40,133 nt of DNA from Gammaproteobacteria bacterium (lineage in GTDB: Bacteria > Pseudomonadota > Gammaproteobacteria > Pseudomonadales > Halieaceae). Where the stretch lies: assembly GCA_030428835.1 (NCBI GenBank), contig JAUIEP010000026.1, forward strand, positions 1 to 40,133. The letters run 5' to 3'. Under the pieces are notes generated by a model that searched no databases, was not told the origin of the DNA, and saw nothing but the letters and a program-made list of their open reading frames with translations. Made by a program: the position numbers and the translations under genes. Every line of letters begins with the position of its first letter. Position 1 is the first letter of the stretch. Positions 9,646-25,398 of the stretch are shown piece by piece.

Positions 9646-9680
9646 GGCGCGTCTGGTGCTCCGGGTCTAATGTTTAGGGT

Positions 9681-10541
9681 CTAGGACTCCGGCATCGGCG
9701 GCACGAGGAGCTGCGGATCGATGCGCTCGCCGCGCCAGCTCATGCGCCAGTCCAGGTGCGGGCCGGTGGCGCGCCCCGTGGCGCCGATCTCGCCGATCAG
9801 GTCGCCTGTGCGCACCTCCTGCCCGACTTCAACCAGCACTTTCGACAGGTGCAGGAACGACGAGGACAGGCCGTAGCCGTGATCCAGGATGATCGTGCCG
9901 CCGGAATAGAACAGGTCGTCCTCCGCCAGCGTCACCACGCCGGCACTCGGCGCGCTCACCGGGCTGCCCGTGGGCAGCGCCACATCGACGCCGTAGTGGG
10001 GACTGCGCGGCACGCCGTTGTAGAAGCGTTGGCTGCCGTATACGCCGGAGATGGGTCCCACGGCCGGCCAGGCGAAGCCGTCCAGGGCAGCGCGCAGCAG
10101 GTCGGGGCGCTGCAAGCGCCGCCCCTTCGCGGCGGCCACCAGCTCGCGCTCGCGGGCGATACGCGCCTGGCGTTCGGGTGGCGGCGTCACGGTTTCCTGG
10201 GGCACACCTTCCACGCGCTGGATCACGTAGTCGCGCTGCGCGATGGCGAGCTGCACGGAGCACGGCGCCGGCCCGGTGACCGTTAGCTCCGCGGCGGGCG
10301 CGGCGTCGCGCCCGAAACCGGCGAAGAAGGTGCCGTCGGGGAGCACATCCAGGTCGGCGCCACCGAGGGAGACCGCGCTGCCCGGCGGGACTCGCCCCGC
10401 GACCAGGCCGCCCTGCACGAGATCACCACTCAGCGCAGGGCACCCCGCCGCCGGCGCCGGGCTTGCCAGCAGGGCCAGCAGCAGCGCGACGCAGCAGCGC
10501 TGCCAGCGCGCCGGGACGGCTCTATGTCGTTTCTGGTTCAT
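9681..10541 (-). CDS. M23 family metallopeptidase
   Basis: A 286-residue exported zinc peptidase expected to cut peptidoglycan cross-links. It has a signal peptide (RCCVALLLALLASPAPAAG), an Ig-like middle section, and a C-terminal LytM domain with the zinc motifs SPHYGVDVAL (H-x3-D), SSSFLHLSKV and GPHLDWRMSW. The HLD in place of the usual HLH in the last motif is common in this subfamily. The start MNQKRH lies inside the 3' end of the DUF5666 gene (20-base overlap), at the edge of the 9-bp repeat tract; more in-frame ATG codons occur in the repeat itself. Translation is probably coupled to the DUF5666 gene. Confidence 0.88.
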   Translation of the reverse strand: MNQKRHRAVPARWQRCCVALLLALLASPAPAAGCPALSGDLVQGGLVAGRVPPGSAVSLGGADLDVLPDGTFFAGFGRDAAPAAELTVTGPAPCSVQLAIAQRDYVIQRVEGVPQETVTPPPERQARIARERELVAAAKGRRLQRPDLLRAALDGFAWPAVGPISGVYGSQRFYNGVPRSPHYGVDVALPTGSPVSAPSAGVVTLAEDDLFYSGGTIILDHGYGLSSSFLHLSKVLVEVGQEVRTGDLIGEIGATGRATGPHLDWRMSWRGERIDPQLLVPPMPES

Positions 10542-12216
10542 CGGGTTCGTCCGGCTCGTCGGGTTCGTCAGGCTCATCCGGTTCATCCGGTTCATCCGGT
10601 TCATCCGGTTCATCCGGTTCATCCGGTTCATCCGGTTCGTCCGGCTCATCCGGTTCATCCGGTTCATCCGGTTCATCCGGTTCGTCCGGTTCATCCGGTT
10701 CGTCCGGTTCGTCCGGTTCATCCGGTTCATCCGGTTCATCCGGTTCGTCCGGTTCGCGACTCTCAAACTCGTGATTCCCATCCAGCCCTGTCGCGGACTC
10801 GAACTCCACCTCGTCGGCAACGCCGTCAGGAGAGCGTTCATCTTCAACTTTGACCAGCGCGCCGATCTCCAGCGCCGCGTAAAATTGCGCAGCCGAAACA
10901 TCCTCGTCGTCGCTGGTCTCGAATTCTGCGCCGCGGGTGGCGAACTGGATACCCAGTACCGTGAGGCTGACACCGTCGACAAACGCCTCGACCGGCGCCT
11001 GGATGACGTCGTCATCGGGTTCCCCGCGATCGATGCGCGTTGCCAGGAGCGCATCGCCCGACATGATCGCCTCGACCTCGAGGAAGTCCCCGACGCGCAG
11101 GTCGGCGAGGCGCAGGGGATTCGCCCTGCCGGTATCATCTTCGAACTGGGTGCGCGCGTCGATGTCGACGGTCACCGAGCCGCCGAAGAACTGCAGCGTG
11201 ACGCGGCGCGCTGCGGCGTCGATGGCAGCCACGGCCGCCTCGACCTCGATACGACCGCGACGCACTTCGACTTCTTCCGCGCGCAGCACGCGGCCGACGA
11301 CAACCCCTTCCACCTCCACGATAACGCCATTCTCAAGCGTGAATCCCGCCGGCGTAATTTCCGCGCGGGAGGCGTCGACCGTAAAGCCGCTGACGCTAAA
11401 ATTGCCCGGCCCGGCGAAATTGGCGATCGTCCCCTGTACGCTGATCTCGTCGCCATCGCGCGCCTGGTCACCGATGTCATCTTCGCGCTCCACCCTCGAC
11501 GCCTGCAGGACACCGTCGACCAGGACGCCGCGAACCTCCACAAACTGGCCGTCTGCCAGTGTGCCGCCGGGCACGTCGCTGAGGTCTGCGTTGGAGTAAT
11601 CCACCAGCGTACCGTCCAGTTCGAACGTCGTCGGGGTCAGGTTCGCAATCCTGGCTTTCACCTCGACCTGCGTGACACCGCTGACAAACTCCCCCGTCTT
11701 CGCCACGCGGGTCGCGCGCAGTTGCCCCGCGCCGATGGCAAATCCCGAGATTTCCAGCACATCCCCGACTGCAAGGGCGGCGAAGTCCACGTTGGCAAAC
11801 ACCGTGCCGGTGCGCTCAACGATGACCTCCGTACCCAGAATGGTGAGCAGCGCACTGTCACCGTCCCGGCTGAACTCGATGGTCTCCAGCGGCCCCTCGA
11901 GGTCATCGTCGAAGACCACACGGTCGGCGGTGCCGGTAAGGCCGTCAGCACTGCGTGTGCCGAATACGGTAACCACCATGCCCAGACCCAGCTGCGACTC
12001 CTGCGCATTAACGCCATCGATCTCGATCGCCGCGCCGGCGGTGTCGTACTCCACGCCGTTGACGAAGATACTGCCGAAGCCGTCGATCGTACCCGATGAG
12101 ACCAGCCCGCTGCCGCCGATGCCTCCGCCGCCACCACCGCTGCTGCCACCGCAGGCGCTGAACACGAGCAGGAAAACAAGCAGTGGTGCGAGGCGCAATC
12201 TGGACAGGGACATCAT
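10522..12216 (-). CDS. DUF5666 lipoprotein with (Asp-Glu-Pro)n tail
   Basis: A 564-residue lipoprotein with a lipobox (LVFLLVFSACGGSS) and a Gly-rich linker. Several OB-like DUF5666 modules follow, each with a pattern such as VSSGTIDGFGSIFVNGVEYD or a G-x-V-x-G-x-I segment followed by a VGDFLEVEA type strand. The C-terminus is a tract of roughly 24 Asp-Glu-Pro repeats ending ETT, encoded by a 9-bp DNA tandem repeat. Function of DUF5666 is unknown. The gene overlaps the DUF6502 gene by 4 bases (ATGA) and the M23 gene by 20 bases, so all three appear to be one translation-coupled unit. The acidic proline-rich tail could span the wall or bind cations, but that is speculation. Confidence 0.85.
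   Translation of the reverse strand: MMSLSRLRLAPLLVFLLVFSACGGSSGGGGGGIGGSGLVSSGTIDGFGSIFVNGVEYDTAGAAIEIDGVNAQESQLGLGMVVTVFGTRSADGLTGTADRVVFDDDLEGPLETIEFSRDGDSALLTILGTEVIVERTGTVFANVDFAALAVGDVLEISGFAIGAGQLRATRVAKTGEFVSGVTQVEVKARIANLTPTTFELDGTLVDYSNADLSDVPGGTLADGQFVEVRGVLVDGVLQASRVEREDDIGDQARDGDEISVQGTIANFAGPGNFSVSGFTVDASRAEITPAGFTLENGVIVEVEGVVVGRVLRAEEVEVRRGRIEVEAAVAAIDAAARRVTLQFFGGSVTVDIDARTQFEDDTGRANPLRLADLRVGDFLEVEAIMSGDALLATRIDRGEPDDDVIQAPVEAFVDGVSLTVLGIQFATRGAEFETSDDEDVSAAQFYAALEIGALVKVEDERSPDGVADEVEFESATGLDGNHEFESREPDEPDEPDEPDEPDEPDEPDEPDEPDEPDEPDEPDEPDEPDEPDEPDEPDEPDEPDEPDEPDEPDEPDEPDEPETT
10534..10757 (-). repeat. 9-bp tandem repeat, about 24-25 copies
   Basis: The minus-strand unit is GATGAACCG with third-position changes (GAC, CCC, CCT). 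It encodes Asp-Glu-Pro in the DUF5666 frame and Met-Asn-Arg in the next frame, which is the M23 peptidase frame. The third frame has a stop in most units. Copy-number change would keep both frames. Variation at third positions suggests selection on the peptide and not purely recent slippage. Confidence 0.95.
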
Positions 12217-13028
12217 GACTCCTCCGACCGGGGCCGGTAATCCGAGTAGTAAATGCCGACAGCGACGTACCGTGGTTCGACATCGTCATCTACGTCGATC
12301 TCGTGCTCCGACAGGAACCGGTGGTACTCCTCCAGCAATTCCTGCGAACGCTGGTTGGACAGTTCCTTGAAAGGCTCAATTGCATCGGGATGCACAAGCA
12401 CGTTAAACACCTTGCGCTGGAAGTGGAGGTTGTTCTCTTCCGCCTGCAGGTTGTGGCCGATCGTCGCGATGAGTTCGGCAACGTCGTGGCCAAGGATGTT
12501 TACCTTCTCGAGGGGTGTCGCCACCGGTACGTAGGCACGGGCGAGCAGTTCGACGCCCTCCTGCCGCACCGCGACCGTGCCGCTCGCTTCCAACACCTTG
12601 AGCATGGCAACCGGCGGTATGTCTCCGCTGTACTCGCGCACGAGCGCGGCGAAGCTCGCCTCATCGCCCTCCATGGGCAGGATACGCGGGCGGCCGTCGG
12701 TATCGAGGTAATCCCTGTTGATGGTCCAGCCGGAAATCACTCGCACGGCGCGGTTGTAGCGCTGTGAGGAGGCCTCGTCGTCCAGGCCCTCCTGCTCGCG
12801 CAGGCGCTTGGCCTCCTTGCGCGTGAGGCCCGTGAGGGCGGATACCCCGGAGATACTGGGACGCTTGCCGGAGCCGGCCATCTGGTCAAACGCCTCGTCC
12901 ACGTACACCTTGCGCGCAAGCTCCGCGAACGTGCCGTAGGCCATGCCGTGACGCAGCAAAACCGCGACCAGCGGGCGCAAAATGCGGATGACGGCTGCAC
13001 TGAGGGCATTGTGCAGGGAATCGCTCAT
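12213..13028 (-). CDS. DUF6502 family protein
   Basis: A 271-residue cytoplasmic protein of unknown function. The N-terminal half (ILRPLVAVLLRHGMAYGTFAE, then a GVSALTGLTRKEAKRLRE segment) reads like a helix-turn-helix type DNA-binding region, and the family is often found next to DUF5666 genes, as here. A transcription-regulator role is inference. I use the ATG at MSDSLHN: a perfect TATAAT on the minus strand (plus 13036-13041) ends 7 bases upstream, so the longer GTG start at 13055 would lie upstream of the -10 box. The mRNA may therefore be leaderless. Its stop overlaps the DUF5666 start. Confidence 0.82.
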   Translation of the reverse strand: MSDSLHNALSAAVIRILRPLVAVLLRHGMAYGTFAELARKVYVDEAFDQMAGSGKRPSISGVSALTGLTRKEAKRLREQEGLDDEASSQRYNRAVRVISGWTINRDYLDTDGRPRILPMEGDEASFAALVREYSGDIPPVAMLKVLEASGTVAVRQEGVELLARAYVPVATPLEKVNILGHDVAELIATIGHNLQAEENNLHFQRKVFNVLVHPDAIEPFKELSNQRSQELLEEYHRFLSEHEIDVDDDVEPRYVAVGIYYSDYRPRSEES

Positions 13029-13035
13029 GTTTGGG

Positions 13036-13041
13036 ATTATA
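13036..13041 (-). promoter_or_regulatory. -10 box (TATAAT) just before DUF6502 start
   Basis: Minus-strand TATAAT sits inside GGGAATATAATCCC, 7 bases from the ATG. No good -35 hexamer is seen at 17 bases, so activity may depend on an activator. It separates the DUF6502-DUF5666-M23 unit from the cytochrome cluster upstream. Confidence 0.5.
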
Positions 13042-13128
13042 TTCCCTTTCTCCACCCGACTCCCGCGAATTCCGGCAAAAATTCGGCCGCACTACAGGAG
13101 AACCCGCCGCAGCGCTTCGCCGCGCGTG

Positions 13129-14832
13129 TCAAAAACGCCTGCGCACACCCAGGATGAGAAAGCCCTGCTGTACCTCGAAGTCCTCGCTGCCGAACTCCTG
13201 CAGCAGCCACTCGTAGCCGAACTCAGCCTCCAGGAAGAGGTCCCTGTTGAACTCGTAATCCAGCCGCACACCCGGGCGCGCCAGCACGGCGTCCTGGTCT
13301 ACCTCGTCCAGGGTCCGGCGCGAGGCCTGCAGGCGCAGTGTCACCGTGAGTCCCCGCGACGCGTAGACCCGTTCGTCCGTGTAGATACTCAATACTTCGC
13401 TGGTATCGCCGGCGGTGTAACGCAAGCCGACACTCAGGCTGTCGCTCGCGAACACCGCATCGGGCCAGACATACTGCAGGCCGTAAGTGGTATTGGCGTC
13501 GGAGTCCGGCGCATCCGGTGAAAATTCGTAGCGCGGCAGTTCGCTCAGTTCAAAGTGGTAGACCTCCGCGATCAGGCGATGGCCGTTGTCGAGTTCCCGG
13601 TTCAGGACGACGGACGCGTAACGACTGAGAGCCGTCTTGTCGAGCGCGGCGTCGTAGACATCGCGGCCGGGGTCCAGCGTGTCGATGTACTCGTCGAGAT
13701 TGACGCCGTACTCGCCGATAATCGCGTTGCTGGCACTGAGGAAGGGACTGCGCTGGTAGCCCAGCGTCGTGGACAGGTTCGTGGCCGCCCCGACATCCCA
13801 GCTACCGTTAAAGGTGAAGTTGTTGAGTTCCCCGAACTCGACGTCGTAGTCCAGCACCGCGAAGTAGCGCGAGGTGTCATTGAACCAGGAGAGTTGCCCA
13901 CCCAGCGCCCTGCGCTCGGTCAGGCCGTCGAACTCCTGCTCCACGATGTAGCCCTGCAGGTTCAACGCGGATTTATCGGGCGCGAACTCAGCGCCCAGCG
14001 CGTACACCAGCCGGTCGCTGTCGCCCTGCTCGCGGCTCGAGGATGAAGGGAGTCCAACGGTGGCCAACAGCGACACGCTGCCGGCAAGCGGCACGCTCAG
14101 GGACGCCCCATCCAGGTAGCCGTAGACGCCCAGGTCCCTGCTGCGCCGGCGCCCCACGACAAGCTCCGTCCCGCTGCGCCGGTGGGTCACACCCATATAA
14201 AGATTGCTCACACGTCCGTCGGAGTCGCCGCGGTCGCCGTGATCCGACAGGTAGCCGCCGTTGACCCGGCCACGCCAGAGCCAGCCGTCACTCTGCCCGC
14301 GCAGGTGCAGGTCGACATCCCCCGCGATCGACGAGATGGGTGTCTCCCGGTCCTGGCCGTCGACTTCCCGGACGAGGCCGCGGTAGCGCATCGAGGCGCT
14401 GCCGTAGACCTGGGTGTCCCTGCCGGGCCGTCGCGCCGCGGCCAGCCTGGGTTGGTCGCTCGCGGTCCGCACCGCCAGCAGGCGCTGCCTGACACGCCCC
14501 TCCCCGACGCTCCGCGGGTAGGATTGCAGCCACTGTTCATACACCGCGCCCGCGCCGGCGAGGTCGCCCTGCTTTTCCAGGCACACGCCGTAGAGTTCAT
14601 ACGCCCACGCCGCCTGTTCCGGGTCCTGCGCGGCGCTCAGCTCCAGGTACATTGCGGCCGCGGTGCTGAAGTCATCCTCCGCGAACAGCCGCGCGGCCTC
14701 CTGCAGGCGCACGGCCACCTCTTCCCTGTCGCCCGGGACTTCCGCGACGGCACCCGCGACAAGCGCGACGCCGAGTAACGTGGCCAACAACGACCGCCGC
14801 ACGCCCCTGCACACTGCTCTCGACTTAATCAA
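13129..14832 (-). CDS. TPR plus outer-membrane beta-barrel protein
   Basis: A 567-residue exported protein: signal peptide (LLATLLGVALVAGAVA), a helical region with TPR-like units at about 36-125 (EAARLFAEDDFSTAAAMYLE, AWAYELYGVCLEKQGDLAGA), then about 430 residues of alternating beta-strands ending in GVRRRF with the terminal phenylalanine used for barrel insertion. The barrel size would allow roughly 16-22 strands; this is an estimate. It starts with TTG (ATG absent) and overlaps the 3' end of the 31-heme cytochrome gene by 8 bases. That coupling suggests it works with the cytochromes, perhaps as the outer-membrane pore or dock of a conduit. It does not resemble MtrB in any motif I can see. 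Confidence 0.8.
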   Translation of the reverse strand: MIKSRAVCRGVRRSLLATLLGVALVAGAVAEVPGDREEVAVRLQEAARLFAEDDFSTAAAMYLELSAAQDPEQAAWAYELYGVCLEKQGDLAGAGAVYEQWLQSYPRSVGEGRVRQRLLAVRTASDQPRLAAARRPGRDTQVYGSASMRYRGLVREVDGQDRETPISSIAGDVDLHLRGQSDGWLWRGRVNGGYLSDHGDRGDSDGRVSNLYMGVTHRRSGTELVVGRRRSRDLGVYGYLDGASLSVPLAGSVSLLATVGLPSSSSREQGDSDRLVYALGAEFAPDKSALNLQGYIVEQEFDGLTERRALGGQLSWFNDTSRYFAVLDYDVEFGELNNFTFNGSWDVGAATNLSTTLGYQRSPFLSASNAIIGEYGVNLDEYIDTLDPGRDVYDAALDKTALSRYASVVLNRELDNGHRLIAEVYHFELSELPRYEFSPDAPDSDANTTYGLQYVWPDAVFASDSLSVGLRYTAGDTSEVLSIYTDERVYASRGLTVTLRLQASRRTLDEVDQDAVLARPGVRLDYEFNRDLFLEAEFGYEWLLQEFGSEDFEVQQGFLILGVRRRF

Positions 14833-17251
14833 AATCGCCGTCTCCCACCCGGTGCTCGCCGGGCCTGAAATCCTTGATCGTCGTCAGGGTGCTGTCCTGG
14901 TACACGTGGCAGGAACCGCTGCAGTCGCGCAGTTCGGACACGTTGTAGTTGCGATCGGGATTCTCGTGCTTCCTGTGCGGCCCGCTTTCAAAATCGGAAG
15001 CGTGACAGCCGGCGCAGGAACCCGCGTAAGCCGCATGGGGCCACGGCAGGACCTGCGCGTTGGTCCGGTGGCAGTCGGTGCAGTCCAGGGAGCGCCGGTG
15101 CTCGCCGGGGTAACCCGGCGAGGTGTGACTGAAGGTATCGGGCGTCCAGCCTGTGGTCCGGTGGCAGCCGGCGCAGTCCAGGTTGGTCTGGAAATGGCCG
15201 TTGTCCTTGCCCGGTGCGGCAACGCCGTCGTGGCAGCTCGCGCAGTTGCCGGTGATACCCTGGTGACTGAAACCGGCCGGCGTCCACGCCACCGTGGAGT
15301 GACAGGCCACACAGTCCAGCGTCGTGGGCAGGTGATCACCGGGTTTGCCGTCCTCGATGCTGTTGTTGTGGCAGCTTGTACAGTTGCCCGTGATGCCCTG
15401 GTGCGTGAAGCTCGCCGGCTCCCACGCCACCGTCGTGTGGCACGCCACGCAGTCCTGGCTGGTCGGCAGGTGGTCGCCCGGTTTGCCTTCCTCGATCACG
15501 TTGTTGTGGCAGCTCGCGCAGTTACCCGTGATGCCCTGGTGCGTGAAGCTCGCGGGCAGCCACGCTAAGGTCGTGTGACAGGCCACGCAGTCCAGCGAGG
15601 TGGTGATGTGATCCTGCGGCTTACCCTCTTCCGTCACATTGTTGTGGCAGCTTGCGCAGTTACCGGTGATGCCCTGGTGCGTGAAATTCGCGGGCTGCCA
15701 CGCGACCGTCGTGTGGCACGCGTTGCAGTCCAGCGAGGTGGCGATGTGATCCTGCGGCTTGCCCTCCTCCGTCACGTTGTTGTGGCAGCTCTGGCAGTTA
15801 CCGGTGATGCCCTGGTGCGCGAAGTTGGCCGGCGTCCACGCGACGGTTGTGTGGCACGCGTTGCAGTCCAGCGAGGTGGTGATGTGATCCTGCGGCTTGC
15901 CCTCCTCCGTCACATTGTTGTGGCAGCTCTGGCAGTTACCGGTGATGCCCTGGTGCGTGAAATTGGCGGGCTGCCAGGCGACCGTCGTGTGGCACGCGTT
16001 GCAGTCCAGCGAGGTGGCGATGTGGTCCTGCGGCTTGCCCTCCTCCGTCACGTTGTTGTGGCAGCTTGCGCAGTTACCGGTGATGCCCTGGTGCGTAAAA
16101 TTCGCAGGCTGCCAGGCGACCGTCGTGTGGCACGCGTTGCAGTCCAGCGAGGTGGCGATGTGGTCCTGCGGCTTGCCCTCCTCAATCGCATTGTTGTGAC
16201 AGGCCTGGCAATTGCCGGTGATGCCCTGGTGCGCGACGTTCGCAGGCTCCCACGCGACCGTCGTATGACAGGCCACACAGTCCTGGCTGGTCGGCAGGTG
16301 ATCGCCTGGCTTGCCTTCCTCGATCACGTTGTCATGGCAGCTCCCACAGTTGCCCGTGATGCCCTGGTGCGTGAAGCTCGCCGGCGTCCACGCGACCGTC
16401 GTATGGCACGCCACGCAGTCCTGGCTGGTCGGGAGGTGGTTACCCGGCTTGCCTTCCTCCGTCACGTTGTTGTGACAGCTCGCGCAATTACCCGTGATGC
16501 CCTGGTGCTCGAAGTTTGCAGGCGTCCAGGCAACGGTGGTGTGGCAGGTGACGCAGTCCTGGCTGGTGGCCAGGTGATCGCGCGACTTACCTTCCGCCTC
16601 GACACCGTTGTGACAGCTCTCGCAACTGCCCGTAATGCCGGCGTGATCAAACCGGGCAGGGAGCCAGGCGAAGGTCGCGTGGCAGTCCTGGCAGTCCCGG
16701 TTCGTCTGGATGTGCTTCGCGGGTTTGCCCGCAGCCTGGATGTTGTTGTGGCACGTGGCACAGGGCTGGGTGACATTGCTGTGATCAAACGTCGCGGGCG
16801 CGAAGGCGAACACCGAGTGACAGTTTTCACACTGCTCGCCCGAGGTAACATGGTCAGCCGGCTTGCCCGGCGCCCGCGAGCCGTTGTGGCACAACACGCA
16901 GGCCCCCGGAAGCTGGCTGTGATCGACTCGCGCGACCTCCTGCCAGTTGAATGTGTTGTGGCAGTTCTCGCAGTTGCCGCCGACAGGAATATGGTCATTG
17001 GGCATAAACGAGTTGGCCATGATCGCGCCCGGCTGGTGGCAGATCGCGCACTCGCGCGGCGTGCCGCCGAACATCCGCCGCTGGTGGCAACTCTCGCACT
17101 GCAGGTCGCGATGCGCACCGCGTAGCTCGAAACCGGTACGAAAGTGGTCGAAGCTTTTACTTTCCGCCAGCGCAACCCGCGCGGGCAGCAGCAGGATTGG
17201 CAGCAATAGCAACAACCACAGGCCCGGCCTGCGAAAAACTGGCGTCACCAT
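14825..17251 (-). CDS. 31-heme c-type cytochrome built of 46-residue repeats
   Basis: An 808-residue periplasmic multiheme cytochrome with a Sec signal peptide (LWLLLLLPILLLPARVALA). I count 31 CxxCH heme sites plus one CxxxCH (CSGSCH) near the C-terminus. The middle is a run of 46-residue units, each with two heme motifs and the marks HQGITGNC, EEGKP, DHxxTSxDC and CHTTVAW. Ten units carry HQGITGNC and more degenerate ones flank them. His residues spaced between motifs could be distal ligands. There is no lipobox, so it is soluble periplasmic or exported. I chose the ATG at MVTPVF, which overlaps the upstream 21-heme gene by 7 bases. Expected role: long-range electron transfer. The specific acceptor is unknown. 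Confidence 0.92.
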   Translation of the reverse strand: MVTPVFRRPGLWLLLLLPILLLPARVALAESKSFDHFRTGFELRGAHRDLQCESCHQRRMFGGTPRECAICHQPGAIMANSFMPNDHIPVGGNCENCHNTFNWQEVARVDHSQLPGACVLCHNGSRAPGKPADHVTSGEQCENCHSVFAFAPATFDHSNVTQPCATCHNNIQAAGKPAKHIQTNRDCQDCHATFAWLPARFDHAGITGSCESCHNGVEAEGKSRDHLATSQDCVTCHTTVAWTPANFEHQGITGNCASCHNNVTEEGKPGNHLPTSQDCVACHTTVAWTPASFTHQGITGNCGSCHDNVIEEGKPGDHLPTSQDCVACHTTVAWEPANVAHQGITGNCQACHNNAIEEGKPQDHIATSLDCNACHTTVAWQPANFTHQGITGNCASCHNNVTEEGKPQDHIATSLDCNACHTTVAWQPANFTHQGITGNCQSCHNNVTEEGKPQDHITTSLDCNACHTTVAWTPANFAHQGITGNCQSCHNNVTEEGKPQDHIATSLDCNACHTTVAWQPANFTHQGITGNCASCHNNVTEEGKPQDHITTSLDCVACHTTLAWLPASFTHQGITGNCASCHNNVIEEGKPGDHLPTSQDCVACHTTVAWEPASFTHQGITGNCTSCHNNSIEDGKPGDHLPTTLDCVACHSTVAWTPAGFSHQGITGNCASCHDGVAAPGKDNGHFQTNLDCAGCHRTTGWTPDTFSHTSPGYPGEHRRSLDCTDCHRTNAQVLPWPHAAYAGSCAGCHASDFESGPHRKHENPDRNYNVSELRDCSGSCHVYQDSTLTTIKDFRPGEHRVGDGDFD
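15174..16691 (-). repeat. 138-bp tandem repeat in cytochrome gene, 11 units
   Basis: A marker string (CAGTTACCGGTGATGCCCTG and close variants) recurs on the plus strand at 15243, 15381, 15519, 15657, 15795, 15933, 16071, 16209, 16347, 16485 and 16623. Every spacing is exactly 138 bases with no insertion or deletion. The central units (15657-16210) are almost identical in sequence, the outer ones diverge. This shows recent duplication or gene conversion in the middle of the array. Confidence 0.97.
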
Positions 17252-18819
17252 GTGATGTCTCCGAAAGTAGTTCCTTTGTGGCAGTGGTCGCACTGCAGGC
17301 CGAACTCACCGTTATGACGGTCATCCGCCGCGTGGCAGCCGCCGCACGTTGTCGGTGGGCTGTCGCCGGCCAGCCGGTGGCAACCGGCACACGCGACGTC
17401 CGCATGCACGCCCTCGAGTTTGAAACCGGTCTCCTGCCCGTGGTCAAACCGCCAGAGCGCCCAACCGTTGGGCGTATGGCAGCTCGCACACTCCCCGCCC
17501 AGCTTGCCGTCGTGTGCGTCATCCACGGCGTGGCAGTCGTTGCACGCACCTGGGGCCTGCGCAAACCGGTGATCGCGGTGGCACGCGAGGCAGGGAGCCA
17601 GTCCGTGCATGCCCTCGAGTGGGAACCGGGTCAGCTCGTGATCGAAACCCGGCGTACCACGCCATTGCACCGGGCTGTGGCAGAGGGCGCAGTCGTCGGG
17701 TTGCTCCTTGCCGTGAATGTCGTCAGCCCGGTGGCAGCCGCGGCAGGTCGCGTCGAGTTCATCGGTAAGGTCGCCGTGGTGACACTGCCTGCACGACAAC
17801 TCGCCGTGTCCCCCGGGCAGGGCCCAGCCCGCCTCCCGCGCGTGATCAAACGCGCCCGTATCCCAGCCCTGTTCACTGTGACAGGCGGCGCAGTCGTCAC
17901 CGTGGCGCCCGGCGTGCACGTCTACACCCTCGTGGCAGGTAACACACGCGGGGTCCTCGGGCAGCGCACTTGCGCCGCTGTGGTGGCAGGCCGCGCACTC
18001 CTGCCCGGCATGGGCGCCGCGCAGCGTAAAGCCCGTCTCCACGCTATGGTCGAAGCGCGTTTCATTCCAGCTCGCCTCGCTGTGGCAGGACTCGCACTGC
18101 GCACCGAAGACGCCGAGGTGAACATCCCGCACGCGGTGGCAACTCACGCAGTCGAGCGACTCGAATGTATAGCGCTCACCCGCGTGACAGGCGCCACACG
18201 CCAGCTCATCGTGCGCGCCGCGCAACGCAAACCGGGTGGCGCCGTGATCAAACTTTCCCCCCTCCTGCCAGCCCCGCGGGGTGTGGCAGCCGCCGCAGTC
18301 CTCCCCCAGTGCGTCGCCGTGGGGACTGTCCTGTTCGTGACAGCTCACGCATTCCGCGGGTGCGTCACGGTACTTGTCACCCGGCGCGTGGCAGCCGGCG
18401 CACTCGACGTCGCGGTGGCCGCCCGACAGCGGGAAATCGGCCAGGGTATGGTCGAAGGTGTCCGGGTCCAGCGCCTGGTCGACGAAATCGGGGCCGCGAT
18501 GTTCGGTGTGGCAGGTAGTGCAGCGGCCTGCGGTGCCCCCTGGCAGGCGGCCGTGCATACCCGTGCCATTCGACCGGTCCCCGGCCACGGCCTCGTGGCA
18601 GTCCAGGCAGAGGTCGTCCTGCGCCTGCTTGTCCAGCCCGCTGTGACAGGCGTCGCAATCGTTCTCGTGCTCGGCATGCGCGCTGGACAGGGGGCCGGGC
18701 GACAGGATCACTGACTTAAGTCCGCGTTCCACCGCGCTCGCGCTGGGCGCCGATGTACCGCCTACTGCCATAACCAACACCAGCAGTAGCAGGCACGGGA
18801 TCGAAGGCGCGTGACGCAC
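17245..18819 (-). CDS. 21-heme c-type cytochrome
   Basis: A 524-residue exported cytochrome with a signal peptide (LLLLVLVMAVGGTSAPSASA) and 21 CxxCH motifs. Its units differ from the neighbour's: each block reads roughly CxxCH ... G-W-x-x-FDH ... FxLxGxHxxxxCxxCH (for example GGHRDVECAGCHAPG and RGAHAGQECAACHHSG), resembling cytochrome c7/c3-type doubled modules. The start codon is GTG, 4 bases after the stop of the membrane cytochrome b gene. The next gene (31-heme) begins inside its last codons. The arrangement implies joint synthesis and a shared electron path from the membrane protein into the periplasm. No lipobox is present. Confidence 0.92.
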   Translation of the reverse strand: MRHAPSIPCLLLLVLVMAVGGTSAPSASAVERGLKSVILSPGPLSSAHAEHENDCDACHSGLDKQAQDDLCLDCHEAVAGDRSNGTGMHGRLPGGTAGRCTTCHTEHRGPDFVDQALDPDTFDHTLADFPLSGGHRDVECAGCHAPGDKYRDAPAECVSCHEQDSPHGDALGEDCGGCHTPRGWQEGGKFDHGATRFALRGAHDELACGACHAGERYTFESLDCVSCHRVRDVHLGVFGAQCESCHSEASWNETRFDHSVETGFTLRGAHAGQECAACHHSGASALPEDPACVTCHEGVDVHAGRHGDDCAACHSEQGWDTGAFDHAREAGWALPGGHGELSCRQCHHGDLTDELDATCRGCHRADDIHGKEQPDDCALCHSPVQWRGTPGFDHELTRFPLEGMHGLAPCLACHRDHRFAQAPGACNDCHAVDDAHDGKLGGECASCHTPNGWALWRFDHGQETGFKLEGVHADVACAGCHRLAGDSPPTTCGGCHAADDRHNGEFGLQCDHCHKGTTFGDITW

Positions 18820-18823
18820 AGCA

Positions 18824-19669
18824 TCAATACCAGTGCACGACGATCACGTGCACAACCGCACAGATCACCATGAGCAGGAAGATGGGAATGTGGAATACAT
18901 GCCAGGCCGAGAACAACCGCTCACACACGCGCAGGCCGGCGAGACGTCGCAGGGTCGCGGCGAAGCCCGTCAGGGTGGCGCGCACCTCGGGGTTGTCACG
19001 AGCGATCGCCGCCACCGACCGCCGTTGCCGCAACAACCAGCGGCGCTGCCGCAGCAGGCCGAAAAATGATACGTCGCCCTCTGCCTGTCGCCGGGCGATG
19101 GCGTGGCAACCCGCGTACAGTTGCGCCAGCCTCTCCTCGTCGCCGCTGTCCAACAACCCGCTGGCCATGGCGGGGCGAAACGCCTCGAAGTCGGAGAGTA
19201 TCTGCTTGAGCCGGACTTCCTCGCCGTACAGGCCGTAGTGGAATTTGCCGTAGAGGTAACGCCCGAACAGTCCGCTGCCCGCAACGAGCAGCATGGAGGT
19301 GAGGGCGATGGTGCTGTTGGTGGACCCCAACTGGAAATTGCTGTGCAGGATGATGCAGAAGGGACCGAGGATGCCGAGCAGCATGTGTGTGCGGAACCAG
19401 CCGGAGAGACGGCCCCAGCGCTGCATGGCAGCCACCCGCTTGCGCAGGGGGTACAGCAGGAGCAGTACCATCAGGCCGGCCCCGACGATCCCGAGGGCGT
19501 ACCCCATGCCGGATTCCGCGTGGATGTAGCGGTAATCGCGACTCGTCCAGGCCAGCAGCGTGACCGCGGCAATGGTCGCGACAAACAGGTAAAAGGCGAG
19601 CCTGGACGCGAACCATCCGCCCGCGGTTGGTGCGGGGTTCCCGGCCGGATTCAATACCTCGGTGCTCAT
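18824..19669 (-). CDS. di-heme transmembrane cytochrome b (ferric-reductase-like)
   Basis: A 281-residue inner-membrane protein with about five hydrophobic helices: 24-42, 55-77, 95-111, 120-138 and 258-279. Two pairs of histidines are spaced H-x13-H, H95/H109 in helix 3 and H260/H274 in helix 5. This is the bis-heme pattern known for the ferric reductase/NADPH oxidase membrane domain. The loop between helices 4 and 5 is long, charged and helical. No fused FAD or NAD(P)H domain follows, so an outside flavoprotein must supply electrons. The divergent 4Fe-4S/FAD gene is the obvious candidate. It is the first gene of the leftward cytochrome cluster. Confidence 0.8.
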   Translation of the reverse strand: MSTEVLNPAGNPAPTAGGWFASRLAFYLFVATIAAVTLLAWTSRDYRYIHAESGMGYALGIVGAGLMVLLLLYPLRKRVAAMQRWGRLSGWFRTHMLLGILGPFCIILHSNFQLGSTNSTIALTSMLLVAGSGLFGRYLYGKFHYGLYGEEVRLKQILSDFEAFRPAMASGLLDSGDEERLAQLYAGCHAIARRQAEGDVSFFGLLRQRRWLLRQRRSVAAIARDNPEVRATLTGFAATLRRLAGLRVCERLFSAWHVFHIPIFLLMVICAVVHVIVVHWY

Positions 19670-19739
19670 GCTGAAATTCTCATTGGGAATTTTTAATTAA
19701 TCTAGTGATTCCGGCAGATTATTTCTTTACAATAATATA

Positions 19740-19771
19740 CACAATATTGGGATATATGTCCCAATTGTGTG
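19740..19771. promoter_or_regulatory. palindromic operator in divergent promoter region
   Basis: A 32-base inverted repeat: CACAATATTGGGA, a 6-base spacer, then TCCCAATTGTGTG; the arms match at 11 of 13 positions and the inner ATTGGGA/TCCCAAT is perfect. It lies in the AT-rich gap between the cytochrome b and the oxidoreductase genes, so one regulator could control both directions. A second ATTGGGA half-site occurs at 19682. Next to it, TGTGATCATTCACA (19768-19781) is another short palindrome with CRP-like halves but a 4-base centre. The binding protein is unknown. Confidence 0.55.
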
Positions 19772-19803
19772 ATCATTCACATTATTTTTTGTGGGGACTT
19801 CCA

Positions 19804-21108
19804 ATGCCTTCGACGCTGGCGATCGTGCTGCTCTACCTGAGCCCCGGCGCGCTGCTGATCGCCGGCTACGTGTGGCACAAGTCGCGCGGGGAGCGTGAGG
19901 CAAAACGCATCTACCGCGAATCGGTGGCCATCGGCCTGACCGAACCGGCGTCACTGCACCCGGTTATCGACAACACGCGCTGCCTGGGCTGCGCCACGTG
20001 TGTCCGCGCCTGCCCGGAAAAGGAGGTGCTCGGTATCGTGGAGCAACGCGCCAGGCTGATCACGCCCGCTTCGTGCATCGGCCACGGCGCCTGCAAGGCG
20101 GCCTGCCCCACCGGTGCAATCGACCTCGTGTTCGGCACCGCGACGAGGGGCGTCGATATCCCCAATGTCGGCGCCGATTTCCAGACCAACGTGCCCGGCA
20201 TGTACATCGCGGGTGAGCTCGGCGGCATGGGCCTCATCCGCAACGCTATCGAACAGGGCGTGCAGGCCATCGACGCCATCGCCGGCAACGGTCGCTGCGG
20301 GCGGGCAGGACACTATGACGTCGCCATCGTGGGTGCGGGTCCGGCCGGTATCAGCGCCGCCCTGGCCGCGCAGGAAAAAGGCCTCGACTACATCGTGCTG
20401 GAGCGGGACAGCGTGGGCGGCACGATCGCGCACTACCCGCGCGGCAAGGTGGTTATGACAGGTCCCGCGCGTCTGCCCATGGTCGGTGAGTTCCAGTTCC
20501 GCGAAACGCGCAAGGAGGATCTTGTCTCATTCTGGACGGACACCATCACGCAAACGGGGATCGAGATTCGCACCGGGCACGCAGTGGAGGACATCACCGC
20601 GGAAGACAACGGCTTCATTCTGCAGGCTGGCCAGGCGTACAGGGCGAGCAACGTCCTGCTCGCGATCGGCAGGCGCGGCACACCGCGCAAGCTCGGGGTG
20701 CCGGGCGAGGAACTGCCAAAGGTGGTGTACCGGCTTTGCGATCCCGAGCAGTACCGGGGTCAACACGTGCTGGTGGTTGGGGGCGGTGACAGTGCGCTGG
20801 AGGCGGCCATGAGCCTGGGCGAAGAACCTGGCACCACGGTGACGCTCAGCTATCGCGGCGCGGCGTTCAACAGGGCGAAGCAGAAGAACCGCGAACGCCT
20901 CGAAGCGGCACAGCGTGCGGCGAGCGTTATCGTGGCAATGGAATCCGAGGTGGAGCGTATCGGCGCGGACGAGGTGGTGCTGAGCACGTGCGGCGCCATT
21001 CCCAACGACACCGTCATCGTCTGCGCGGGCGGCATCCTGCCCGACGCCTTCCTGCGCACCATCGGCATCGAGGTGGCGACCCACTTCGGGCGCGTACCGG
21101 TGCAATGA
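19804..21108 (+). CDS. membrane-anchored 4Fe-4S/FAD NAD(P)H oxidoreductase
   Basis: A 434-residue flavoprotein. An N-terminal helix (residues 4-24) should anchor it in the inner membrane. A ferredoxin domain follows, with C60-x2-C63-x2-C66-x3-C70-P and a second site C91-x2-H94-x2-C97-x3-C101-P in which histidine replaces the second cysteine. Then comes a stretch typical of the end of pyridine-nucleotide oxidoreductases (TNVPGMYIAGEL), placed here before the FAD motif GAGPAG (177-182). The NAD(P) motif GGGDSALE is at 326-333. There is no redox CxxC as in thioredoxin reductase. ATG chosen for the GGGGA 7 bases upstream. It probably feeds electrons from NAD(P)H to the divergent cytochromes; this is inference from context. 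Confidence 0.85.
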   Translation: MPSTLAIVLLYLSPGALLIAGYVWHKSRGEREAKRIYRESVAIGLTEPASLHPVIDNTRCLGCATCVRACPEKEVLGIVEQRARLITPASCIGHGACKAACPTGAIDLVFGTATRGVDIPNVGADFQTNVPGMYIAGELGGMGLIRNAIEQGVQAIDAIAGNGRCGRAGHYDVAIVGAGPAGISAALAAQEKGLDYIVLERDSVGGTIAHYPRGKVVMTGPARLPMVGEFQFRETRKEDLVSFWTDTITQTGIEIRTGHAVEDITAEDNGFILQAGQAYRASNVLLAIGRRGTPRKLGVPGEELPKVVYRLCDPEQYRGQHVLVVGGGDSALEAAMSLGEEPGTTVTLSYRGAAFNRAKQKNRERLEAAQRAASVIVAMESEVERIGADEVVLSTCGAIPNDTVIVCAGGILPDAFLRTIGIEVATHFGRVPVQ

Positions 21109-23051
21109 TGTTGCGCACCTGCGCCGCGCTACTGTGCTGCCTCGCCTGCACGCTGGGCTATGCGCAGGATCTCGAATCCGGCTACGGGGCGCTGCGGCGC
21201 GGCGACCTGCAGGCTGCCATGGCCGCCTTCGCAACCGCGGCCGAGGCAGGTTCCGCCGAGGCCCAGCACCAGCTCGGCAAACTCTACCTGCTGCATGCTG
21301 GTGACGGGGAGGACCGCGCGAGCGGATTACGGTGGCTTGAACAGGCCGCCGACGCCGGAGAGACGGGGGCCCAGTACACACTCGGGCTACACCTGGTGGA
21401 GCATGGTCAACGCATCGAGGGTGAAAGGTGGCTGCAGCGAGCCGCCGCCGGCGGATCCACACAGGCTGCGCGCTACCTTGAGGTCGCCGCGCAAAATGAA
21501 CCGGGGTTGACGCCGACCGAACTGGCAGCCCGCTGGCGCAGCGCGGGCAAGGGTTGCGACGCACAGGAACTCGCGGAGCTGCTCGAGGCCGGCGCTGACA
21601 TCGATATCACGGACAACCAGGGGCGCACCGCGCTGCACCACCTGGTCGAGTGTGACGACGCACGAGGCGTGGAACTCCTGTTGCAGCACGGCGCCGACAC
21701 GAACAGGAGCGACCGGTACGGCGAGACGGCGCTTTCCCGCGCGGTGGCACGCGAAAACGCCGCGATCGTTGCGCGCCTGGTGGCCGCGGGGGCCGACGCC
21801 ACGGGCACGAACCAGGCCGGTTCCACGCTTGTGCACGAGGCGGTCCATCGCAACGCACTGTCCACACTGTCCGCGCTGCTGGCCGGGCGACCGGCGCTCG
21901 ACCGGGTCGATGCCCAGGGCTACACCGCGCTGGACCGGGCAATACAGCAGGACCGTCAGGAGGCCGCGCGCCTGCTGCGGGCATCCGGCGCGCGCCGCGG
22001 CAAACGCCTCGACACCGGCGCTGGGCAGGACATCGCCTCCCACCTGGTTTCCGGCGGGACGGACACCTGGGACACGGCGCGCCAGGCGGCGCAGCAGGAT
22101 GCGAAGCGCGCACTGGAAATACTTCTCGAGCACGGCGGCGACAACCTGGTCACCGCGGTCGACGACAGCGGCTACAGCCTGCTGATGTACGCGGCACAGG
22201 CGAACGCCCCCGCAGCGCTCGCCCTGTTGCTCGAACACGGCGCGGATGCGGACCTCGTCAATGCGGAGGGCCTGGGCGCCCTGATGCTGGCGACGCGGAA
22301 CGGCCACGCGCAAATCACGCTGCACTTGCTGCACAGCGGCGCGGACCCACTACTCACGGACAAGGCCGGCCGCGACGCGATCATGCACGCGCTGCTGTCC
22401 GACCACGACGGCATCGCAAACACGCTGCTGGTAGAGGCCACACCGCAGTCCCCTGAACGCCTCGCAGAGTACCTGCGACTGGCTATCGCGCGCGGCGCCG
22501 CGACGAGCGCTGCGTGGCTGGCGGCGCGGGACACCAACACGGACATCGCCGACGCGGCGGGGCGCGCGCCGCTGTGGTACTCGGCAAAACACTGCGATGA
22601 AACCGTGGCGCGCACGCTGCTGCAGCGCGGGGCGGATGTGCGTCGCGTCGACCGGAAGGGACAGAACGCCCTGCACATCGCCGCGCGCGAAAACTGCCCG
22701 GCCGTGGTTGCGCTGCTGCTGGACAACGGGGCGGCGATCGATGGTCGCTCGCAGCTGGGGAACACGCCGCTGCTGCTGGCGGCCACACACGGCGCTACCA
22801 GCAGTGCGCTATTGCTCACGCACCGCGGCGCGGACACGCGCCTGGCCAACAGCGTTGGTGAAACGGCACTGATGTACGCGGTACGCGGTGACAACCGCGC
22901 ATTGATATCCGCGCTACTGGAACAGGGCGCCGACCCGTACCGGCGCAACGACCTCGGTGACTCCGCCCTGACCCTCGCCCAGGCGCGGGACCCTGCGGTG
23001 CTGGAACTGCTGCGCGCGCGCAGCCCTTTCCGCCTGCCGCTTCTCGATTAG
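21105..23051 (+). CDS. exported Sel1/ankyrin repeat protein
   Basis: A 648-residue protein with a signal peptide (MMLRTCAALLCCLACTLGYA). Two to three Sel1/TPR-like units follow (ALRRGDLQAAMAAFATAAEA, AEAQHQLGKLYLLHAGDGED). The rest is about twelve ankyrin repeats, recognised by GxTALHHLVE, LLLQHGAD, LLLEHGAD, LLLDNGA and similar strings. Ankyrin arrays bind proteins. In the periplasm they are less common; AnkB of Pseudomonas, linked to a catalase, is a known example. The ATG overlaps the stop of the oxidoreductase gene (ATGA), so the two are translation-coupled, and a scaffold role for the electron route is plausible. Confidence 0.88.
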   Translation: MMLRTCAALLCCLACTLGYAQDLESGYGALRRGDLQAAMAAFATAAEAGSAEAQHQLGKLYLLHAGDGEDRASGLRWLEQAADAGETGAQYTLGLHLVEHGQRIEGERWLQRAAAGGSTQAARYLEVAAQNEPGLTPTELAARWRSAGKGCDAQELAELLEAGADIDITDNQGRTALHHLVECDDARGVELLLQHGADTNRSDRYGETALSRAVARENAAIVARLVAAGADATGTNQAGSTLVHEAVHRNALSTLSALLAGRPALDRVDAQGYTALDRAIQQDRQEAARLLRASGARRGKRLDTGAGQDIASHLVSGGTDTWDTARQAAQQDAKRALEILLEHGGDNLVTAVDDSGYSLLMYAAQANAPAALALLLEHGADADLVNAEGLGALMLATRNGHAQITLHLLHSGADPLLTDKAGRDAIMHALLSDHDGIANTLLVEATPQSPERLAEYLRLAIARGAATSAAWLAARDTNTDIADAAGRAPLWYSAKHCDETVARTLLQRGADVRRVDRKGQNALHIAARENCPAVVALLLDNGAAIDGRSQLGNTPLLLAATHGATSSALLLTHRGADTRLANSVGETALMYAVRGDNRALISALLEQGADPYRRNDLGDSALTLAQARDPAVLELLRARSPFRLPLLD

Positions 23052-24112: not shown

Positions 24113-24865
24113 CTAATTGCCCCGCGAGCGCCGGCGGTGGTGGAAAGCCCACATCGTCAGGCCGCTGAAGGCGATACAGATCAGCAGCACACCCACGGCA
24201 TCCACTAGCCACACGCCCGCCCTGCCGACCAGGCGGCCGCTGTGCACGTCCAGCAGCAGGCGCTCCCAGGTCAGCCATTGCTCCGGGGCGGGGATCGCGT
24301 CGCGTATGGCAGTGGGCAACCGCCCCGGCGACACCTGGACGATCTCCGTGCCGCCCGGCTGTCGCGCGAATTCCAGCGCGTCCAGGTCCACCGACCACCA
24401 GCGCTCGCCCGTGGACAGCAACACCCCCGACTCCGCCCGCCCGAGCCCGACAACCGGGACCGGCAGGCCGGTGCTCGCGTTGACGGTCTCGATCAACTCA
24501 CCGGCCGGCGTCACCAGCAGCAGTTCCTGCGTACAGGCCGCCAGCAACATGCCGTCGGCCGCGAGCGCGCCCACGAGGTCACCCAGGCAGGAGGCCACCT
24601 CGACGGTATCCACGTAAACGTAGCCGCTGGCGCTGCGCGACAGCCAGAGCTCGCCGAGCCGGTAAGCGGGCAGGTCGCGCTGCCCCTCCTCGTACAGGCT
24701 CATCAGCCAGCGCGACTGCACGAGACGTGCGTCAAGGCCGAAGTCGGACGTGTGGTTAAGCACCACGCCGGTCGCGGCGAGCACGATAAGAAACAGGAAG
24801 ATGGCAACGCCGGTGCGCCGGTGCCAGCGCCACAGCAGGCCGACCAGCCGTTGGCCGCGCCGCAT
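24113..24865 (-). CDS. PepSY-associated transmembrane protein
   Basis: A 250-residue inner-membrane protein of the PepSY_TM type. Its N-terminus LLWRWHRRTGVAIFLFLIVLAATGVVLNHTSDFG contains the first helix with the conserved histidines (WHRRTG, NHT). A periplasmic domain follows at about 40-205, then LLLDVHSGRLVGRAGVWLVDA and a second helix ending in the WAFHHRRR tail. Related proteins accompany siderophore uptake systems and are thought to help ferric reduction. The start overlaps the stop of the FMN-binding gene, giving an operon of three genes under a Fur-like box. Two helices and not four mark it as the short form. Confidence 0.85.
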   Translation of the reverse strand: MRRGQRLVGLLWRWHRRTGVAIFLFLIVLAATGVVLNHTSDFGLDARLVQSRWLMSLYEEGQRDLPAYRLGELWLSRSASGYVYVDTVEVASCLGDLVGALAADGMLLAACTQELLLVTPAGELIETVNASTGLPVPVVGLGRAESGVLLSTGERWWSVDLDALEFARQPGGTEIVQVSPGRLPTAIRDAIPAPEQWLTWERLLLDVHSGRLVGRAGVWLVDAVGVLLICIAFSGLTMWAFHHRRRSRGN

Positions 24866-25398
24866 CAGCCCTGGACCCGGTCGTCCAGCCAGAGCGCGAG
24901 TCGCGCCACGCGTTCGACGGCGCGCACAGAGAGAGTGGCGCCGGTGATGCCGTCAATCGGCGCGGAAAGGTAGCCGTCGTCGGCCAGGCGCAGGCCGGAA
25001 AACTGCCCCGTGAAGAAGGGATAGCGGATCTCCCAGCCGCGGCTTTCGCGGAATGCGAGCACCTCGACGCGTTCAATCTGCTCACCGCAGACCACCACGC
25101 CGAGCGTGATGGGTTTTTCCTTGCCGATGTCCTCGAGTATCCACGCCGTGCGCTCGCCTACCCGCCAGTAACGCACGCGCAGGCCGCGCGGCGTCCAGCC
25201 CACCGCCTTCTGCGCGGCGCCGCGGGATTCATCGGTCAGCCAGAACGTGTGCATCGCGGGTTGCGCGTCGCCGAACGCCAGTGACAGGAAGGATTCCCTG
25301 TCCATGTATTCGTCGCCATAGGCAAAAAAGGCTGCCATCGAGAGGATGGCAGCCATAGCGTAGCGGCAGAGCCGCTTACGTCCGCTTCTTGCGTGCAT
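24865..25398 (-). CDS. FMN-binding domain protein with flavinylation motif
   Basis: A 177-residue exported protein with a signal peptide (YAMAAILSMAAFFAYG). The C-terminal FMN-binding domain contains DGITGATLS, matching the D-x-x-(S/T)-G-A-T motif where ApbE attaches FMN covalently to the threonine. The domain is related to those of NqrC and RnfG. It probably carries electrons on the outer face of the inner membrane, next to the PepSY protein whose gene overlaps its stop by one base pattern (TGATG). The porin gene's stop overlaps its start in the same way. An apbE gene is not in the window. Confidence 0.87.
   Translation of the reverse strand: MHARSGRKRLCRYAMAAILSMAAFFAYGDEYMDRESFLSLAFGDAQPAMHTFWLTDESRGAAQKAVGWTPRGLRVRYWRVGERTAWILEDIGKEKPITLGVVVCGEQIERVEVLAFRESRGWEIRYPFFTGQFSGLRLADDGYLSAPIDGITGATLSVRAVERVARLALWLDDRVQG

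Follow-up and report, generated by a model that had tools for sequence, protein, structure and literature searches.

PCC3 is a putative porin-cytochrome cluster described in 2017 by He et al. (PMC5566968), and for several iron-oxidizing bacteria it has been considered a possible iron oxidase within a quinone-linked model. According to the main text of that paper, its parts are a porin with up to 42 transmembrane (TM) regions, an extracellular multiheme cytochrome (MHC; median 34 hemes), a periplasmic MHC (median 21 hemes), and an inner-membrane protein (IMP) of approximately 300 amino acids (aa) with five TM segments, the motif WX3HX13H twice (in TM3 and TM5) and the motif SGXXG (in TM4). The cluster was found in Fe(II) oxidizers, and the IMP was modelled as quinone-active, with electrons moving inward, by analogy with hydrogenase cytochrome b and bc1; for PCC4 and other MHC-IMP clusters the same authors noted a redox partner gene (PMC5566968). 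In Sideroxydans ES-1 the genes follow the order IMP (Slit_1446), periplasmic MHC (Slit_1447), extracellular MHC (Slit_1448), and porin (Slit_1449) (PMC12016527). Here we analyze a PCC3 locus on contig C10 of a 5.2 Mb genome of a gammaproteobacterium of the family Halieaceae (the window, that is, the whole stretch of DNA that was analyzed, is 40,133 nucleotides long), and propose that two further proteins, a flavoprotein of NAD(P)H type and an ankyrin-repeat protein, belong to the system.

The six genes stand in two divergent arms: the IMP, a 21-heme cytochrome (c21), a 31-heme repeat cytochrome (c31), and the porin on the minus strand, and the flavoprotein and the ankyrin gene on the plus strand. 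A preliminary description of this DNA had listed these genes with their motifs, the counts of 21 and 31 hemes and the tight junctions, all of which are borne out by the sequence; its statement that the arrangement resembles no known one does not hold, because four of the genes match the PCC3 of He et al. (PMC5566968). Those four are assigned to PCC3 by published motifs, gene order, and heme numbers, sharing with it the porin, a periplasmic MHC of ~21 hemes, a large repeat MHC, the IMP motifs, and a low number of residues per heme (25 and 26 here). The order IMP, periplasmic MHC, second MHC, porin is seen in the window, as in ES-1, and in most relatives, with exceptions that include L060, L074, L075, L076, L139, L149, and L153. 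The locus differs from the published account in that the latter names four components rather than six and is quinone-linked and inward. What is new is the tie of the flavoprotein and the ankyrin protein to PCC3, plus a candidate regulator, the other four parts having been described previously. A term search of the main text of PMC5566968 finds FAD, flavoprotein, ankyrin, TPR, and tetratricopeptide all absent, although figure 6 or the supplementary tables of that paper may show the neighbour. Flavoprotein, FAD, and NAD are likewise absent from the searched text of PMC13386937, as are flavoprotein and FAD from that of PMC12016527, and PMC10734462 has flavin and FAD once each, not tied to PCC3 in the passages containing them. 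Among titles and abstract openings, supplements and figures being outside the search, no flavoprotein or ankyrin partner of PCC3 is reported, and our literature search returned no paper joining ankyrin repeat, multiheme, and extracellular electron transfer.

Association of the flavoprotein and the ankyrin protein with PCC3

Loci were gathered via the IMP alone, the flavoprotein not being used, from two overlapping sources: 40 loci from a genome sample and 80 named loci (the top 80 among 301 confirmed). Of these 120 loci, 117 scored above 80 bits for the IMP, and discarding near-identical ones left 108; L037-L039, with an IMP below 80 bits, represent a different cluster type and were left out. 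The gene set recurs in Gammaproteobacteria and in records labelled Alphaproteobacteria, Deltaproteobacteria, Emcibacter, or Sphingomonadales, and the closest match among 37 genomes (G023) carries the same set. The flavoprotein is present in 100 of the 108 non-redundant loci. For four of the eight loci without it the genome holds a flavoprotein elsewhere: ~11 kb off on the same contig (L059, genome G247), at the end of another contig with a porin and an ankyrin gene (L054, genome G111; the second piece is L160), on another contig of a fragmented assembly (L072, genome G276), and on a different contig despite the mid-contig position of the IMP (L067, genome G037). The remaining four (L076, L112, L138, and L139) are short or cut contigs.

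The preliminary description had named co-occurrence in other genomes as a check on the gene set, and for IMP and flavoprotein this check was run. Among 370 genomes of the class, own genome included, 38 have both IMP and flavoprotein, one has the IMP only, one the flavoprotein only, and 330 neither, so that the two are found together in 38 of the 40 genomes having either strong match (IMP E ≤ 1e-20, flavoprotein E ≤ 1e-80, cut-offs set after viewing the match lists). The IMP-only genome is a 410-contig assembly (G207), and the flavoprotein-only genome (G121) shows an incomplete match on a contig of 3.5 kb. In 397 genomes of the phylum, again including our own, the six with an IMP at E ≤ 1e-80 are the same six that have the flavoprotein, and G069, G122, and G301, each with two strong IMPs on different contigs, also carry two flavoproteins apiece. 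Judged by this distribution, the flavoprotein belongs to the core of the system.

Of the 92 testable loci, which have at least 1.5 kb of sequence 3' of the flavoprotein gene, 74 have the ankyrin gene directly there and in the same orientation. It accompanies a displaced flavoprotein in L065, L066, L106, L115, L120, L133, L135, and L155, and in L067 and L072 it stands beside the IMP with no flavoprotein near. A crude test for signal sequences is passed by 70 of 81 copies, and some copies fail it owing to misplaced starts, so the ankyrin protein is probably exported. The gene-tree distances of IMP, c21, flavoprotein, porin, and ankyrin protein correlate with r of 0.73-0.85 across 52 taxa, namely the window and 51 of the 67 loci having all four other genes, and none of 999 permutations was as high (maximum 0.24). 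Unrelated phylogenetic patterns of barrel and cytochromes had been named in the preliminary description as a ground for giving up the idea; the tree distances of porin and c21 are among those that correlate. Linkage, genome co-occurrence of IMP and flavoprotein, and correlated gene-tree distances support the view that the six genes form one system, and on these comparisons we place the flavoprotein and the ankyrin protein among the members of PCC3.

Other proteins also occur next to these genes. Two TPR proteins stand beside the flavoprotein or the IMP (L120:19774-20823 and L154:8955-9878), their blast families being present in 21 and 18 of the 108 loci, respectively; they look CcmI/NrfG-like.

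Protein features and the proposed electron route

The flavoprotein has a single N-terminal hydrophobic helix, followed by a ferredoxin-like Fe-S domain (Fer4) and a Pyr_redox domain in Pfam. Its first Fe-S motif is CX2CX2CX3CP, whose second Cys gives way to S or T in 5 of 97 aligned rows; the second is CX2HX2CX3CP (C124-H127-C130-C134, residue numbers counting from GTG 19705), in which the His is present in 97 of 97 rows, suggesting a histidine-ligated or three-cysteine cluster. The protein also has an FAD motif GxGPxG and a second motif GGGDSALE, and R384 and R390 are invariant in the 97 rows, matching in position the site for the NADPH 2' phosphate in TrxR-type enzymes. That alignment holds no conserved redox-active cysteine pair and no conserved TrxR CxxC, and a Cys at the FAD-loop position (residue 211), the one used by YpdA, occurs in 1 of 97 rows. 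Since both kinds of cysteine are absent as conserved features, the partner would be an Fe-S cluster or a heme, not a disulfide. Structure prediction covered the porin and the flavoprotein; the closest Protein Data Bank relatives of the latter are YpdA/Bdr, TrxR, and FNR-type reductases, with strong E-values and modest template-modelling scores (≤ 0.41 by query length). By crude counts the N-terminal helix is present in 79 of 98 flavoproteins and is followed by a basic stretch, so that the domains are predicted to be cytoplasmic by the positive-inside rule.

The IMP has WX3HX13H at 91 and 256 and SGXXG at 132, the former two offering four histidines for two b hemes. Five hydrophobic regions are seen, the fifth appearing as two overlapping windows. 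Both WX3HX13H motifs occur in 107 of the 108 loci and all three motifs in 106 (W or L at the first position), and no Pfam family matches at E 0.1. In c21, 21 CxxCH motifs fall within 524 aa, or 25 aa per heme; across the 108 loci its homologs have exactly 21 in 84 of 99 frames and 24 in seven, and some of the others are cut by contig ends. The repeat-built c31 has 31 CxxCH at ~23-residue spacing in 808 aa and one further CxxxCH. Its counterparts range from 7 to 43 CxxCH (49 uncut frames of the 80 named loci, some being fragments of split frames) and reach 69 in the other locus set. The c31 protein is the putative counterpart of the MHC that He et al. predict to be extracellular (PMC5566968), and for this reason the lack of an outer-membrane lipoprotein cytochrome, as claimed in the preliminary description, does not mean that a surface cytochrome is missing. 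By eye no lipobox is evident in the c31 signal sequence.

For the porin, described earlier as a TPR/beta-barrel protein, the AlphaFold2 model (mean pLDDT 85.8, pTM 0.67, from 24 alignment rows) agrees with that description, having a TPR-like domain of five helices at 36-124 and a barrel of 22 strands from 141 to 566 by DSSP, a count that comes from one model and, where strands are short, could be off by one or two. The top Foldseek matches of this model are outer-membrane barrels with a probability of 1.00 (template-modelling score by query length ≤ 0.42), and MtrB is absent among the 50 matches listed. Profile matches to BBP2_2 and TPR are weak and below cut-off.

We think it rather probable that the locus is PCC3 in its full form and encodes a split, NOX-like reductase that spans the envelope and is fed by NAD(P)H. 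In this model the membrane-tethered flavoprotein, with its domains in the cytoplasm, would accept electrons from NAD(P)H on FAD and hand them on, by way of two Fe-S clusters, to heme b on the n side of the IMP, from which they would cross the inner membrane to the p-side heme b, enter a c21 wire spanning the periplasm, and leave through the outer membrane via the TPR-barrel protein and c31 to an outside acceptor. The exported ankyrin protein would most likely serve as a periplasmic scaffold or assembly factor. The whole would amount to a NOX or ferric reductase whose flavin and heme parts lie on separate genes and are joined to a porin-cytochrome conduit. The route from NAD(P)H through flavin, heme b, and heme c to a barrel had been suggested in the preliminary description and, with the Fe-S clusters inserted, is the best fit to the parts, each step being inferred. 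A more specific version, to which we give slightly less than even weight, adds that the six-gene NAD(P)H-driven split NOX would bypass the quinone pool, with the IMP feeding a 21-heme wire across the periplasm and a surface cytochrome whose hemes may number up to dozens, and that it would have a dedicated ankyrin scaffold, an Fe-S cluster with an invariant His, and DUF6502 control in part of its range.

Gene layout, a candidate operator, and DUF6502

The features of the locus and its surroundings are given in Table 1. Neighbouring genes overlap by 8 bases (porin/c31), 7 bases (c31/c21), and 4 bases (flavoprotein/ankyrin), and a gap of 4 bases separates c21 from the IMP. Starts were revised for c31 (ATG 17251) and the ankyrin gene (21105). 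For the flavoprotein, ATG 19804 is the most likely start rather than GTG 19705, because most relatives align only from about residue 31-43 and a palindrome occupies 19748-19763. The earlier label of a Sel1/ankyrin exported protein holds for the ankyrin part, with strong matches, while the Sel1 match is weak and below cut-off.

Table 1. Coordinates of the PCC3 genes, palindromes, and adjacent genes in the window.
Feature	Position	Strand	Remarks
PCC3-type porin	13129..14832	-	567 aa; signal sequence, TPR-like N-terminal domain, predicted 22-strand beta barrel
31-heme repeat cytochrome (c31)	14825..17251	-	808 aa; 31 CxxCH + 1 CxxxCH; signal sequence
21-heme cytochrome (c21)	17245..18819	-	524 aa; counterpart of PCC3 periplasmic MHC
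Di-heme b inner-membrane protein (IMP)	18824..19669	-	281 aa; five hydrophobic regions, published motifs
Palindrome TGGGATATATGTCCCA, candidate operator	19748..19763	.	divergent promoter region; same site class in relatives
TM-anchored 4Fe-4S/FAD NAD(P)H-type oxidoreductase (flavoprotein)	19804..21108	+	434 aa from ATG 19804
Exported ankyrin-repeat protein, weak Sel1 match	21105..23051	+	648 aa; signal sequence
Second palindrome, one mismatch	13032..13047	.	immediately 5' of DUF6502 start codon
DUF6502 protein, candidate regulator, outside core	12213..13028	-	ATG at 13028; PF20112 185.9 bits
DUF5666 lipoprotein-like protein, accessory, outside core	10522..12216	-	PF18914; overlaps DUF6502 gene

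The divergent intergenic region of 134 bases contains TGGGATATATGTCCCA, and a promoter and terminator scan of the locus gave nothing useful besides this palindrome. Exact copies of TGGGA-N6-TCCCA number 20 in 1.64 Mb, within 15 of the 108 loci, and 19 of them fall in stretches upstream of flavoprotein, IMP, DUF6502, or DUF5666 (regions delimited after the palindrome positions were known), which make up 3.4% of the bases and in which 19 permuted control palindromes average 0.05 sites (maximum 1). Tolerating one mismatch brings the number of sites in the 108 loci to 59, of which 21 are outside those regions. Our own genome has one site of the control pattern and three exact sites: in the PCC3 promoter, ~640 bases from the second DUF6502 gene (C46), and on C298, where the core is GC-rich. 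The upstream regions (≤ 1.15 kb) of 40 DUF6502 genes, hand-picked from a longer match list, mostly from its top and not at random, have the exact site in 22 cases and none even with one mismatch in 11; 18 of the 19 control palindromes give no exact site in these regions, and one gives three. Between flavoprotein and IMP, a site with no more than one mismatch (exact in four cases) occurs in eight of 36 PCC3 loci of the class genomes, all eight in genomes that bear DUF6502; it is missing there in 15 other DUF6502-bearing genomes and in all 13 without DUF6502.

DUF6502 is present in 26 of 39 PCC3 genomes vs. 72 of 331 others. Within the 108 PCC3 loci, homologs of DUF6502 are found in 10 and of DUF5666 in nine, the DUF6502 homologs lying on the side of the ankyrin gene in seven of the 10. 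Because the same palindrome stands in the PCC3 divergent promoter and before many DUF6502 genes, we infer that the DUF6502 protein is a candidate transcription regulator that would bind TGGGA-N6-TCCCA as its operator, and in this genome it probably regulates PCC3. No paper that we found names DUF6502, and a function was not found in the literature.

Elsewhere in the window, genes for Porin_O_P, FMN_bind, and PepSY_TM proteins lie in a row on the minus strand (24113-26624), just past a greA/greB-type gene; they look like a separate extracytoplasmic flavin/redox operon, and none of the 108 PCC3 loci has a homolog of them at E 1e-6. Two overlapping long frames of 752 and 258 aa (6113-9144, minus strand) have no Pfam match at 1e-5 and no homologs at 1e-6 in the same loci. 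A search for named plasmid-borne relatives gave a single remote match.

Rival readings and comparison with described systems

The evidence can be arranged in other ways. If electrons were taken up from outside, c31 would oxidise an outside donor (Fe(II), a mineral, or a partner cell), electrons would pass inward to the b hemes, and the flavoprotein would reduce NAD(P)+, driven by the membrane potential or by a donor of very low potential; we regard this reading as unlikely. Transfer from Fe(II) to NAD(P)H is uphill, redox potential and membrane potential favour outward flow from NAD(P)H, and the named hosts of PCC3 loci include Mangrovimicrobium and Paraglaciecola, genera that to our knowledge are not known as iron oxidizers. 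Expression data point both ways: the inner-membrane gene of PCC3 copy 2 in Sideroxydans CL21 rose on gaining iron oxidation (PMC12442390), whereas in ES-1 both PCC3 clusters were downregulated on Fe(II) relative to thiosulfate (PMC8788666). The occurrence of PCC3 in Fe(II) oxidizers and its inward model (PMC5566968) also speak for uptake. It is because of the energetics and this lower expression on Fe(II) in ES-1 that we favour the outward direction as the more probable one. A quinone-linked conduit, in which the partner of the IMP would be the quinone pool and the flavoprotein would be ancillary (for assembly, redox poise, or heme/thiol maintenance), would keep the published analogy with hydrogenase cytochrome b and bc1 (PMC5566968); we consider it quite unlikely, in that an ancillary factor need not be so constant and that two Fe-S motifs together with no conserved redox-active cysteines fit electron transfer. 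Chance neighbourhood of flavoprotein and ankyrin gene beside PCC3 is very improbable and largely refuted: ankyrin proteins are promiscuous and the ankyrin gene is sometimes not adjacent, but the genome co-occurrence of IMP and flavoprotein, the ankyrin adjacency, and the correlated tree distances speak against it, and it was rejected on the linkage in 108 loci and the co-occurrence in 370 genomes.

Apart from the inward model and the CL21 expression, several observations weigh against an NAD(P)H-fed six-gene system. With looser cut-offs (IMP 1e-6, flavoprotein 1e-40) 50 and 42 class genomes match, with 39 in common; the phylum sample has nine weaker IMP matches (E 1e-15 to 1e-23) without a flavoprotein match, and G372 has two flavoproteins for one IMP match. 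Co-occurrence without linkage comes down to G037, because G111, G697, and perhaps G276 are cases of contig ends. Eighteen of 92 loci lack an ankyrin gene directly 3' of the flavoprotein gene: in L046 (split flavoprotein) and L052 (316-base gap) it is still next door, in L069 and L073 it is nearby on the opposite strand, in L075 a shorter one lies 3 kb further along, and for 13 loci the available sequence contains none. Shared vertical descent alone could yield the correlated trees. In L060, which keeps porin, flavoprotein, and ankyrin gene, multiheme frames were not found in the available sequence, and in L139, cut at 394 bases on its upstream side, multiheme, porin, flavoprotein, and ankyrin genes were not found in the 10 kb downstream of the IMP. 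The predicted use of NAD(P)H is drawn from fold and motifs, and our literature search found no biochemistry of the system.

Should the near-constant flavoprotein of NAD(P)H type be a true partner, the quinone model of PCC3 would change, with the pyridine nucleotide pool as the likely inside terminal, and this would help explain PCC3 in bacteria not known for iron oxidation. The parts list would gain two parts and a candidate regulator.

Among described systems, MtrCAB, MtoAB, and PioAB have in common with this locus the functional principle of a multiheme wire within an outer-membrane barrel, and differ in that the barrel here is modelled with 22 strands and a TPR domain and that a CymA-type donor is absent from the cluster. 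Membership in MtrCAB/MtoAB was rejected, the DmsE/MtrA and OmcA/MtrC models scoring far below their cut-offs (TIGR03508, 97.8 bits for c31 and 21.7 bits for c21 against 192.2; TIGR03507, 37.9 bits for c31 against 209.3). PCC4 resembles the locus in a five-helix IMP with the same motifs and in a redox partner gene, as far as the main text of PMC5566968 describes it. A second IMP-type cluster lies in the same genome (L037, G000:C168:23000-42999, at 7429-19999) and encodes an 846-aa cNMP-binding/FAD/4Fe-4S fusion, a 10-heme protein, and a further 10-heme protein with an LVIVD match. It has distant homologs of the flavoprotein (33%) and the IMP (25%), differs in its fused flavin protein, its 10-heme proteins, and an IMP that is only distantly similar, and resembles the porin-less MHC-IMP clusters mentioned by He et al. 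(PMC5566968).

The flavoprotein shares its fold and its FAD and NAD(P) motifs with YpdA/Bdr and FNR-type reductases, from which it differs by an extra TM helix, a ferredoxin-like domain, and the lack of conserved disulfide-active cysteines; its score of 150.4 bits against the YpdA/Bdr model TIGR04018 stays below the cut-off of 339.9. In NOX and ferric reductases, and in MsrQ with its separate flavin reductase, electrons run from NAD(P)H through a flavin and two b hemes across the inner membrane, which is the functional likeness on which our model draws. PF01794, the ferric reductase TM domain, is not recognised in the IMP by Pfam at E 0.1, only the HX13H pattern being common to both. The proposed system would differ from NOX and ferric reductases in its separate TrxR/FNR-like flavin protein with Fe-S motifs, and in having a wire of c hemes as the acceptor.

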